64,000 nucleotides of DNA, taken from contig JAHDWP010000015.1 in NCBI GenBank assembly GCA_023382715.1, positions 1-64,000 on the forward strand, written 5' to 3'. The notes below the pieces were generated by a model. It worked only from the letters and a program-made list of their open reading frames with translations. It did not search any database and had not been told where the DNA came from. The translations under genes and the position numbers were made by a program. Shown piece after piece: positions 53,600 to 59,440 of this stretch. This DNA comes from Anaerolineae bacterium (GTDB taxonomy: Bacteria > Chloroflexota > Anaerolineae > Aggregatilineales > Aggregatilineaceae). The stretch's first letter is position 1. Every line of letters starts with the position of its first letter.

Positions 53600-53977
53600 T
53601 CAGCCCTTCCCGTCGCGCAGATGCCGTTGCAGCTTCTCCAGCAGCTCGGCAGTGCTGATCGGCTTGGACAGGTAATCGTCGCAACCCGCCGCCAGAAAGC
53701 GCTCGCGGTCGCCGCGCATGGCATTGGCCGTCAGGGCGATGATCGGGATTGGCCCTGTGTCGGGGCGCGCCTTCAGGCGGCTCGTGGCTTCCACGCCATC
53801 AATCCCCGGCAGGCTGATGTCCATCAGGATCAGGTCGGGCAGCTCTTTGGTCGCCACCTCGACGCCGGTCAGCCCGTCGTCCGCTTCCAGCACCTCGAAG
53901 CCGCGCGCCTGCAGCATCTTGCGCACCAGGCGCTTGTTCTGGAAATTGTCCTCGACGTACAGAATGCGGTATGCCAT
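53600..53977 (-). CDS. Single-domain response regulator closing the signalling operon
   Basis: 125-residue receiver. The acidic pair is in YVEDN, the phospho-Asp in LILMDISLPGIDG, the switch Thr in IIALTANAMRGDRE, and the Lys in DDYLSKPIS. It resembles DivK/CheY-type relay proteins, especially receivers working with hybrid kinases (ALTANAM signature). It starts 59 bases after the PLP-receiver fusion, and the ATG at 53977 has a GGAG site. It is a likely shuttle or a competing phosphate sink in the relay. Confidence 0.9.
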   Translation of the reverse strand: MAYRILYVEDNFQNKRLVRKMLQARGFEVLEADDGLTGVEVATKELPDLILMDISLPGIDGVEATSRLKARPDTGPIPIIALTANAMRGDRERFLAAGCDDYLSKPISTAELLEKLQRHLRDGKG

Positions 53978-54036
53978 AGCACGCTCCACGCCCCACCCTC
54001 CAGGATGATCCTGGCCACTGCCCTGCTCGCGCGTCC

Positions 54037-56176: not shown

Positions 56177-59100
56177 TCAATCCTTGTCGGGCGCGGCGAT
56201 GGGTATCGTGAAGTAGAACGTCGAACCGGCCCCTGGTGTGGATTCTACCCATAGCACGCCGCCATGCATCTGGACAAGCTGGCGCGTGATGGACAGGCCC
56301 AGCCCCGTGCCGCCCGCGCGCCGCGAGTACGACTGGTCTACCTGGCGGAAGCGGTCGAAGATCACCTGTAGCTTCTCCGAGGCGATGCCGATGCCGGAGT
56401 CTGCGCAGGAGACGAGCAGCCAGCGCGGATCGCGCTCGTAGATGTCGGCGCGCAGGACGATTGACCCCTCGTCGGTGAACTTGGCGGCATTGGCCAGCAG
56501 GTTGCCGACGATCTGGCGCAGGCGCACCAGGTCGGCCTGCACGTCGGGCAGGTCTTCCGGCACGTCCACGATCAGCTCCACCGGCTTGCCCTTGAGCAGC
56601 ACGCGCGACGCGGCGGCCATTTCCTCGACCAGATCGTGCAACCGGATACGCTCCAGGGCCAGGTCCATCTGCCCGGCCTCGATCTTGGCCAGGTCGAGGA
56701 TGTCATTAACCAGGTTGAGCAGGTGCCGCCCGCTCTCGTGAATGGCGGCCACGTCTTCTTCCATCTCGCCGGTCAGCGGGCCGTCAATGCCATCGAGCAG
56801 CACTTCCGCATAGCCAATGATCGAGTTGAGCGGCGTGCGCAGCTCGTGGCTCATGCTGGCCAGAAACTCGCCTTTGAGACGGTCCACTTCGCGCAACTGG
56901 TCGGCCACGTCCACCTGCTCGGCGTACAGCCGCGCGTTCTGCACCGACACGGCGATCTGCGCGGCCAGGGTGGAGTGAATGGCCACGTCCTCCTCGCCGA
57001 AGCGCCCCACACGCTCGGACTGCACGTCCATGACGCCGATCAGCGCGTCGCCGGCGATCAGCGGCACGGCCATTTCCGAGCGCGTGTCGGGTAGCAGCGG
57101 GTTGGGCAGAAAGTCCGGCGCTTCCTGCACGTCGTTGACGACAATGCCAGTGCGAGCGCGGGCCGCGCGGGCCACCAGGCTGCGCTCAGCACGCAGCGGG
57201 ATGGTATGCCCGGCGGCGACCATCTGATCGCCCACCGTGCCCGCGCCGGCGGCCAGCACCAGCGCCTCGTGCACTTCATCGAGCAGATAGATGTGTGCGT
57301 GATACAGCCCGAAGTGCTCTTTGGTCAGGTTAGCGACCGTGCGCAGCAGGGAATCGGGGTCGAGCGAAGTCGAGGCAGTGGCGCTCACTTCGGCCACCGT
57401 CTCCAGATCGCTGGCGCGGCGCTCGCTCTCGTCAAAGGCGCGGTACTGCTCCAGCGCCGAGGCCAGGCGCGCGGCCACATCTTCGATCAGGCGCTGCTCT
57501 TCGGGTGTCCAGTCGCGCTCTTTCTCCTCGCCGATGACGATGCGCCCGATGGTCTGGTCGCGCAGCTTGACCGGCTGGACGAGCACGCGGTCGTGCCCGT
57601 TGTCGGGCAGATCGGCCTCCAGCGGGTCTCTATCCAGCGGGCGCACGCGCTGCAAGTCGTAGTGCACGCCGACGCGCCCGCCCCCCGACAGGCGGCCCAG
57701 GTAGCCTTCCCAGGCGGCGCTGATCAGGCGGCGGTTGATGGCGTCGGCGCGATCCACTGCCTGGAGCGTCTCGTCGTAGGCGCGCGCGCCCAGCAGCGCC
57801 GAAGCGAGCTGGCTGGCCATCGCCTCGAACACGGGCAGGTTGTCCTCGCGGAAGGTGCCGGGGTGGTCTGCCTGCATGTCCAGCACGCCGATCACGTCAT
57901 CGCCAGCGACGAGCGGGATGGCGACTTCGGAGCGCGTGCCGGGCAGCAGGGGGTTGGGCAGGTGCACATCGCTGACTTCCGTATCCTGCACCAGCACGGG
58001 CCGCCGTGTGCGGGCGGCGCGGGTGACGATGGCCGTCGCGCTCAGGTCCAGGCGGTGACGGCGCGCCAGCAGCGCCCGGCCCACTTCGCCGGTGCCCGCT
58101 TCGAGCACCGCGTGACGCCCCACGTCGTCAATCAGGTACACCTGCACGTAGTACAGGTCGAACTGCTCGCGGATGTACTCCACCACACTGGGGATCAGGC
58201 CCTCCGACTGGATCAGGCCGGTGGCGAGCTGGCCCACTTGCAGCGTCTGGAAGAGGTTGCGCGTGCGGTCGGCCACGCGCTGCTCCAGCGACTCGACCAG
58301 GTCTTGAAGCTGCGCGGCCATGTCGTTGAAGGCGCCGGCCAGGATGCCCAGCTCGTTGCGGGCGCGCAGCGCCACGCGCTGGCCCAGGTCGCCGCCGGCG
58401 ATGCGCGCCGCCGCCCCCGCCAGCACCGTGATCGGGCCGGAGAAGCGCGCCGCCAGCAGCACGCCCAGGCCCGCCGCGACGACGGCCAGCACTGCCACGA
58501 GCGCCATCAGGAATACCTGCGTCTCGCGGAAGGCGGACAGCGCCTCGGCCTCCTCCACTTCGGCGAGCATGGCCGACTGCAGCTCCGGCACCCAGCGATA
58601 CACGCCGAAGACCTTCCGGTCACGATAGTTCACATAGGTCGCCACGCCTTCATCGCCCGCCAGGCCGCGCTCGATGCCCTCGCTGCGGTAGGCGCGGGCC
58701 AGCGGGTAGCCGGGGAAGCGGCTCGGCGTGAGCAGGTAGTTGGCTTCGGCGCTGACCAGGTAGGTTTCGCCGCTTTCGCCCAGACCAGCGCGCTCGCCCA
58801 TCACCACGCCCAGGGTGGTGATGTTGAGCCGCCCGGCCAGCACGCCAACCGTCTCGCCTTTATTCACCAGCGGGCGCGTGAGGATCATGGTCAGTTGGTC
58901 GTTGCCCGGCTCGTAGTAGGGCGGCTGGGTGTAAGGCACCTTGATGCTCTCGGCGAAGTACGGCTGGCGCGTGACGATCTTGCCGACCTGCACCGGATTG
59001 GACGAAGTGAGAATCAGGCCCGTCTCGTCATAGAAGAAGAACTCGCTGAAGGCGGGATGGACGGCCACAGTGTTGCGGAAGATTTCGGCGAAGGTGCGCT

Positions 59101-59440
59101 GCAACGACCCGGCTCGGTCAATATCCAGGCTGGCCAGCAGCAGAAAACGGCTGTGACTCAGCTCGTCGGACATCAGCACCGAAAGCAGCGACTGGCTGTC
59201 CGTCAGCCAGCGCGTGATCTCCTGGCTTTTCAGCTCGGCCACTGACTCAAGCTGGCTGATCGCCTGGTCGCGGGCCATCGTGTTCACCCGGGACGACGTG
59301 ATCACCCCGATGATCGCCGCCGGGATGACGACCAGCAGCACAAAGGTGAACGCCAGGTTCCAGCGAATCTGCCACCAGAACGGCAGCCGGGAACCCGCCG
59401 CTGCGCCGGGGGATGAGATGGTGTGTGCGTGTCCAGTCAT
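56177..59440 (-). CDS. Sensor histidine kinase: dCache-like, HAMP, GAF, HisKA, HATPase
   Basis: 1087-residue membrane kinase. Helix 1 (28-48), an extracytoplasmic dCache-like domain (about 50-305, with GESGETYLVSAEANYLLTPS), helix 2 (308-330) and HAMP (331-385). Then come GAF 1 (408-550), a degenerate GAF-like stretch (565-665) and GAF 2 (685-840), both GAFs sharing a HLPNPLLPGTRSE or FLPNPLLPDTRSE motif. HisKA has phosphoacceptor His865 in ASMSHELRTPLNS; HATPase_c has N984 in LLANAAKFTD, DSGIGI and GTGLGLSI. No receiver is attached, so phosphate should pass to the receivers encoded downstream. It follows a substrate-binding lipoprotein gene. Confidence 0.92.
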   Translation of the reverse strand: MTGHAHTISSPGAAAGSRLPFWWQIRWNLAFTFVLLVVIPAAIIGVITSSRVNTMARDQAISQLESVAELKSQEITRWLTDSQSLLSVLMSDELSHSRFLLLASLDIDRAGSLQRTFAEIFRNTVAVHPAFSEFFFYDETGLILTSSNPVQVGKIVTRQPYFAESIKVPYTQPPYYEPGNDQLTMILTRPLVNKGETVGVLAGRLNITTLGVVMGERAGLGESGETYLVSAEANYLLTPSRFPGYPLARAYRSEGIERGLAGDEGVATYVNYRDRKVFGVYRWVPELQSAMLAEVEEAEALSAFRETQVFLMALVAVLAVVAAGLGVLLAARFSGPITVLAGAAARIAGGDLGQRVALRARNELGILAGAFNDMAAQLQDLVESLEQRVADRTRNLFQTLQVGQLATGLIQSEGLIPSVVEYIREQFDLYYVQVYLIDDVGRHAVLEAGTGEVGRALLARRHRLDLSATAIVTRAARTRRPVLVQDTEVSDVHLPNPLLPGTRSEVAIPLVAGDDVIGVLDMQADHPGTFREDNLPVFEAMASQLASALLGARAYDETLQAVDRADAINRRLISAAWEGYLGRLSGGGRVGVHYDLQRVRPLDRDPLEADLPDNGHDRVLVQPVKLRDQTIGRIVIGEEKERDWTPEEQRLIEDVAARLASALEQYRAFDESERRASDLETVAEVSATASTSLDPDSLLRTVANLTKEHFGLYHAHIYLLDEVHEALVLAAGAGTVGDQMVAAGHTIPLRAERSLVARAARARTGIVVNDVQEAPDFLPNPLLPDTRSEMAVPLIAGDALIGVMDVQSERVGRFGEEDVAIHSTLAAQIAVSVQNARLYAEQVDVADQLREVDRLKGEFLASMSHELRTPLNSIIGYAEVLLDGIDGPLTGEMEEDVAAIHESGRHLLNLVNDILDLAKIEAGQMDLALERIRLHDLVEEMAAASRVLLKGKPVELIVDVPEDLPDVQADLVRLRQIVGNLLANAAKFTDEGSIVLRADIYERDPRWLLVSCADSGIGIASEKLQVIFDRFRQVDQSYSRRAGGTGLGLSITRQLVQMHGGVLWVESTPGAGSTFYFTIPIAAPDKD

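Follow-up and report, generated by a model that had tools for sequence, protein, structure and literature searches.

The window analysed here, the first 64,000 nucleotides of contig JAHDWP010000015.1 (assembly GCA_023382715.1) from an Anaerolineae bacterium of the phylum Chloroflexota, contains a gene in which a pyridoxal-phosphate (PLP) enzyme domain related to threonine synthase is joined to two receiver domains. The fusion lies between the gene of a sensor histidine kinase and that of a free receiver, in the following layout:

54037..56166, minus strand: PALP-receiver-receiver fusion, an uninterrupted ATG-started frame of 709 amino acids
56071..56145, minus strand: N-terminal zinc-ribbon-like part with cysteines 10, 13, 26 and 29, placed by cysteine conservation in relatives
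55015..55950, minus strand: fold-type II PLP domain (Pfam PALP, residues 73-384), with Lys111 (SFKDR) at 55834-55836
54865..54921, minus strand: lead-in stretch ahead of receiver 1 (residues 416-434), partly helical in the model
54517..54864, minus strand: receiver 1 (residues 435-550), with phospho-acceptor Asp484 at 54715-54717
54052..54408, minus strand: receiver 2 (residues 587-705), with phospho-acceptor Asp638 at 54253-54255
56177..59440, minus strand: sensor histidine kinase, dCache_1-HAMP-GAF-GAF-HisKA-HATPase_c by Pfam, with at least two GAF domains and no Response_reg
53600..54040, minus strand: free receiver, overlapping the stop of the fusion by 4 bases (ATGA)

Against Pfam the 709-residue protein scores 225.8 bits for PALP (cut-off 35; E 9.6e-67) and matches Response_reg in two stretches (E 2.7e-34). 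The profile score above cut-off and the Schiff-base lysine place its first part among the fold-type II PLP enzymes, while the acidic pair, Asp, Ser/Thr and Lys in the receivers, with a kinase gene adjoining, mark a response regulator. Lys111, the four cysteines, the glycine loop (SGGIG, residues 246-250), Asp484 and Asp638 lie where the original prediction had placed them, as judged from the sequence and the alignment. It had also correctly described the fusion as starting 10 bases after a kinase gene whose product lacks a receiver, and as being followed by a free receiver gene; the likely real start of the latter is an inner ATG at 53977.

That the fusion is real rather than an error of assembly or frame is borne out by 98 distinct fusions, some of them on contigs of 3.3 to 6.3 Mb (genomes G005, G112, G337, G208 and G110). 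A pattern scan of the genome collection gave at least 80 loci; among the matches listed, L001-L021 and L036 carry fused frames (L006 and L009 end at contig ends), L022 is broken, L023 and L024 are unfused, the remaining loci match through their receivers, and the nearest relative (94%) sits on a contig of a Thermoflexus metagenome-assembled genome. Recurring as it does with conserved residues and neighbours, the fusion is more than a product of chance. Among 400 Chloroflexota genomes searched, 64 match the window protein at E 1e-60. A close set comprises 56 matches in 42 genomes (E ≤2.1e-119, identity 47-65% apart from the window itself at 100%, frames of 549-1157 residues), and a clean gap separates it from the remaining matches in the phylum (identity 34-39%, E ≥1.1e-67, frames of 414-488 residues). 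At E 1e-80 the subfamily is found in 143 of 396 sampled genomes of the window's class, with a few short frames among the matches listed (e.g. 376 residues in G1230 C290), and the fusion is widespread in the Chloroflexota. Searches of five other phyla at E 1e-60, covering 292, 296, 169, 101 and 119 genomes, scoring only some first-look candidates per genome and, for the 119 genomes, run without a positive control, gave 4, 8, 1, 2 and 0 matches, among which no fusion was seen, the 501-residue frame of G1524 in the 101-genome search aside. None of 72,556 plasmid records covers 80% of a one-receiver member.

How well are the two active centres kept? The 119 distinct PALP-bearing frames of the collected loci fall into 102 close ones (at least 341.7 bits) and 17 far ones (at most 214.5 bits), and our alignment of 103 rows consists of the 102 close frames and P0001, with the window protein counted twice and near-copies included. 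The four zinc-ribbon cysteines, Lys111 and the STGN loop (S134-T-G-N137) occur in each of the 102 rows that extend over these positions, one row being cut, and S246, G247, G248 and G250 in all 103; residue 384 is Ser or Thr in every row that reaches it, and residue 138 is Ala, Val or Lys. The receiver centres are conserved likewise, with D440, D484, Ser/Thr514 and K536 in all 99 rows that bear a receiver and D638 together with K690 in 45 of the 46 rows that have a second receiver. The spacing between G420 and D440 is 20 or 21 residues in all 99 rows, a constancy suggestive of a conserved segment leading into receiver 1.

The pairing with a kinase gene is tight. Neighbours were counted around the 98 distinct fusions, the window's own included, with the upstream or downstream side in view for 96, and were called by phmmer with the window and related proteins, a procedure that may miss distant receivers or kinases. 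A kinase gene on the same strand immediately precedes the fusion in 78 of 96 cases, with a gap of no more than 100 bases in 71 of these 78, and the next gene downstream encodes a free receiver in 53 of 96. A second receiver is not a general feature: the one-receiver layout accounts for 53 of the 98 fusions and the two-receiver layout for 45; among the one-receiver readings, L006 is truncated by the end of its contig, and L182 stands alone within the clade of two-receiver fusions. The kinase itself bears receivers in 30 of the 78 pairs, every one of them with a one-receiver fusion. An EamA-type transporter, checked by Pfam on four examples (L091, L129, L019 and L020), lies within two genes of 30 of the 53 one-receiver fusions, 29 times on the same strand, and of none of the 45 two-receiver fusions. 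In the tree the two-receiver fusions group together in a clade that also takes in L182 and the truncated L006, and 28 one-receiver fusions make up another, which holds most of the EamA cases; further EamA cases sit on early one-receiver branches.

In a tree of 60 receivers from 21 hand-chosen operons, a split (96/91) separates two kinds: the free receivers cluster with receiver 1 of the hybrid kinases, and the two PALP receivers cluster with receiver 2 of those kinases; counterparts of the window's free receiver in related loci fall into the free-receiver clade. For PALP receiver 2 the sister group is receiver 1 of those same branches (98/85), a pattern that a tandem duplication would leave. 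Whatever the layout, each of the 21 operons has both kinds of receiver, suggesting a module that keeps a kinase, a receiver of the free kind and an enzyme-bound receiver, while the boundaries between polypeptides move.

Several operons hold further genes. Among the EamA-linked ones, L120, L121, L123-L128, L130-L132, L136 and L138 have a gene of 260-262 amino acids immediately preceding that of the hybrid kinase (in L120 Pfam identifies it as a ParA-type ATPase), and many have an OmpR-type regulator (Pfam on L120) and kinases in the opposite direction beyond EamA. In L134/L114 and L118, from two close genomes, no kinase lies directly upstream and the fusion follows an IF-2B/MtnA-like gene (PF01008 in L134), a possible link to methionine salvage. 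L008, L012 and L013 carry a 383-residue gene, an acyl-CoA dehydrogenase by Pfam in L012, between the receiver gene and the two-receiver fusion; a receiver-guanylate/adenylate cyclase gene (L133:5307-6353) stands two genes after a one-receiver fusion; and in L002, L004 and L018 a secreted-looking protein of 505-622 amino acids follows the free receiver or receivers, with PA14 and SH3 domains in L004 (Pfam) and a similar look by eye in the others.

What kind of enzyme has been attached to the receivers? By fold the PLP domain is a relative of threonine synthase (ThrC; TIGR00260, PRK08197; PDB 2c2b, 1uim, 2d1f), with which it has the fold, the PLP lysine and the loop in common at 22-34% identity to the solved structures; the best fold matches are 2c2b (threonine synthase; Z 40.8, root-mean-square deviation 2.8 over 386 residues), 9k3c (cysteate synthase; Z 36.2 over 372 residues) and 2d1f (Z 36.2). 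It differs in the attached receivers, in five replaced substrate residues and in its scores, the window fusion remaining below both curated threonine synthase cut-offs (TIGR00260 130.9 versus 167.1; PRK08197 249.5 versus 303), which some unfused relatives pass in the case of TIGR00260. The window genome has two further ThrC-like genes, each above a threonine synthase cut-off: the regular threonine synthase foreseen in the original prediction lies at 35110-36396 on the minus strand (TIGR00260 256.4 bits), and a second gene, on G000 C8, passes both models (215.4 and 333.3). Thus, the fused copy need not make threonine, in support of the earlier proposal that it is free for another role.

Mapped onto 1uim, the PLP residues K61, S84 and N87 are conserved apart from one cut row, and T317 corresponds to Ser or Thr. 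T88, N154, S155, R160 and N188 of T. thermophilus ThrC are, we assume, the residues that hold the substrate phosphate, a list supported by the presence of the expected amino acid at all five positions of 1uim; none of the five is kept in any of the 102 subfamily rows, and all five are kept in 8 of 8 canonical controls. In a midpoint-rooted tree of 71 rows, 28 fused rows and four from the cyanobacterial phylum form one clade (100/100), apart from canonical ThrC, from PRK08197-type enzymes and from actinobacterial and long cyanobacterial rows. A canonical threonine synthase as the fused domain is not supported, by the cut-offs and the five residues alike, though O-phosphohomoserine may still be used. 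Cysteate synthase (TIGR03844), which has the fold in common and no receivers, does not fit either: the fusion scores above the true ThrC of the window (117.8 versus 51.4), but far below the cut-off of 324.9. MetM homocysteine synthase and the 'unique' ThrC lineage of Microcystis are reported to be relatives of ThrC whose chemistry has diverged (PMC12172450). The group of long cyanobacterial and actinobacterial rows, which we guess may hold them, is a clade separate from the fusions. MetM was also sought through 17 SAM-IV riboswitch loci in Actinomycetota, none of which has a PALP gene.

The operon in the window extends further than originally described: the genes then given belong to it, but three upstream genes of the same run on the same strand had been left out.

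59495..60559, minus strand: lipoprotein-like NMT1/THI5 substrate-binding protein (Pfam), found also in, for example, L001 and L018
60608..62386, minus strand: dCache-HAMP-GAF protein without a kinase domain (Pfam), found also in L001-L003
62451..~63458, minus strand: ABC_sub_bind binding protein (Pfam), whose longest frame begins at 63635, found also in L001-L003

With starts as chosen, the gaps along this run, from the outermost of the three genes to the kinase that they precede, measure 48-64 bases; the kinase occupies the same position in L001-L003. Beyond the ABC_sub_bind gene lie deformylase-like and FabG-like genes (by eye). No ABC permease or ATPase was seen by eye beside the binding proteins of the window, which may therefore serve sensing. 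With gathering scores as thresholds, Rfam yielded no riboswitch hit in the window, and its promoter and terminator scans gave little above shuffled sequence; a 6S RNA is located at 7417-7590 (74.2 bits).

Our characterization agrees best with a response regulator that has a PLP enzyme as its output and is switched by the neighbouring kinase, a reading to which we assign a probability of roughly 0.6 and in which catalysis, phosphotransfer and a product are what we infer. As both active centres are kept across the alignment, phospho-regulated PLP catalysis is favoured among the three roles first considered, the others being ligand sensing and scaffolding. In such a scheme, the upstream sensor kinase, with input in the window's lineage from periplasmic binding proteins and dCache/GAF sensors, would autophosphorylate and pass its phosphate to Asp484 (and to Asp638), or do so via the free receiver. 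Phosphorylation could then alter the packing or pairing of the receivers and so open, close or assemble the PLP domain, which would catalyse a replacement or elimination reaction of an amino-acid substrate, possibly one other than O-phosphohomoserine, or O-phosphohomoserine held differently. For the one-receiver forms with an EamA gene, the transporter would probably move the product or a relative of it across the membrane. It is even conceivable, if rather doubtful, that these parts close a self-made extracellular signal loop, in which the kinase switches the PLP enzyme, an amino-acid-like compound is made and, in one-receiver forms, exported by EamA, and Cache domains or binding proteins belonging to the system sense it outside.

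Several observations weigh against this reading. No kinase is seen directly upstream of 20 of the 98 fusions, two of these at contig ends. The linker from E391 to G420 varies between 21 and 34 residues, a length that suits a tether as well as a lever, and two AlphaFold2 models place the receivers without confidence (predicted template modelling scores of 0.57 and 0.67, predicted local distance difference test below 50 in the linker and low up to residue 432). Furthermore, three of the four relatives found among 292 genomes of the cyanobacterial phylum (48-51% identity; L168-L171, L206-L209) end without a receiver. In the fourth, L169, which has a long frame upstream of the domain, the contig ends right after the domain and a receiver may have followed; no kinase or receiver gene was found beside any of the four. 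In midpoint-rooted trees these rows join one Chloroflexota fusion, L158, a position that fits loss, transfer or an early unfused branch, and they offer a handle on the reaction of the enzyme itself.

Other points speak against a new reaction in particular. The receiver-less L208 and L206 pass TIGR00260 (187.1 and 170.4 versus 167.1), and the one-receiver fusion of L120 nearly does (160.8). Of the five residues, PRK08197-type enzymes, which carry the name threonine synthase, retain R160 alone (6 of 6 rows), and N154 is the sole one retained in the six actinobacterial and the 18 long cyanobacterial rows; all three types are named as users of O-phosphohomoserine, and one may have been shown to be so (PMC12172450). 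As other named threonine synthases thus also do without most of the five, the five changes separate the subfamily from canonical ThrC and prove no other substrate. The figure of 0.6 is left unchanged by this evidence, because it rests on the coupling of regulator and enzyme and not on the substrate.

Possible, though on balance unlikely, is a PLP domain that acts as a ligand sensor, binding PLP and an amino-acid ligand and tuning the receivers or the kinase while turning over little or no substrate. In the MocR type, PLP enzymes of a different fold have become regulators, the signalling operon holds binding proteins and Cache/GAF sensors, and the pocket is unlike that of canonical threonine synthase. 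However, the PLP lysine and the other mapped PLP positions are kept across 102 rows, although loss of some would be expected in a domain that only senses, and relatives without signalling neighbours exist. An improbable explanation is that the fusion serves as a phosphorelay hub or scaffold whose receivers shuttle phosphate between kinase and free receiver, with the enzyme domain carried along or localised. The occurrence of both receiver kinds in every compared operon, on differing polypeptides, would suit such a role, as would the alignment of both receivers with the tandem receivers of PleD, but an intact PLP centre would then be needless, and none of the seven window proteins scanned with Pfam contains a histidine phosphotransfer (HPt) domain. 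We consider it very improbable that the fusion is a regulatory partner that pairs with a normal ThrC and adjusts it: ThrC-type enzymes do form dimers, and of the free PALP genes found within three genes of a fusion, the two that were scanned belong to the PRK08197 type of threonine synthase (577.5 and 569.2 bits; cut-off 303), but such genes accompany just 6 of 98 fusions, and the ThrC of the window is about 18 kb away. An assembly or frame artefact, in favour of which one relative in broken pieces could be cited (L022:7986-9097, two overlapping pieces with no receiver in frame, from a decayed gene or a sequencing error), has practically no chance in view of the many distinct fusions on record, including those on megabase contigs.

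A response regulator with an enzyme as its output is already known in kind, as in CheB, GGDEF, HD-GYP, PP2C and thioredoxin reductase fusions, where, as here, a receiver is fused to an enzyme. PleD (PDB 1w25, 2wb4) likewise has tandem receivers, which align with residues 435-706 of the window fusion, but its output is a diguanylate cyclase. We know of no such regulator with a PLP enzyme of amino-acid metabolism, and a full-text literature search, whose scope left subscription papers and preprints mostly outside, brought up no description of a PLP enzyme fused to receivers; an amino-acid-type PLP enzyme as the partner would be the new element.

The usual targets of response regulators are DNA, cyclic nucleotides or protein partners. 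Our analysis suggests that the Chloroflexota carrying the fusion switch amino-acid chemistry directly by signalling, with fusion and kinase as a defined protein pair and with a subfamily of its own inside the well-studied threonine synthase fold. If this is true, signalling would set small-molecule chemistry directly and post-translationally in about one third of the sampled genomes of one class.

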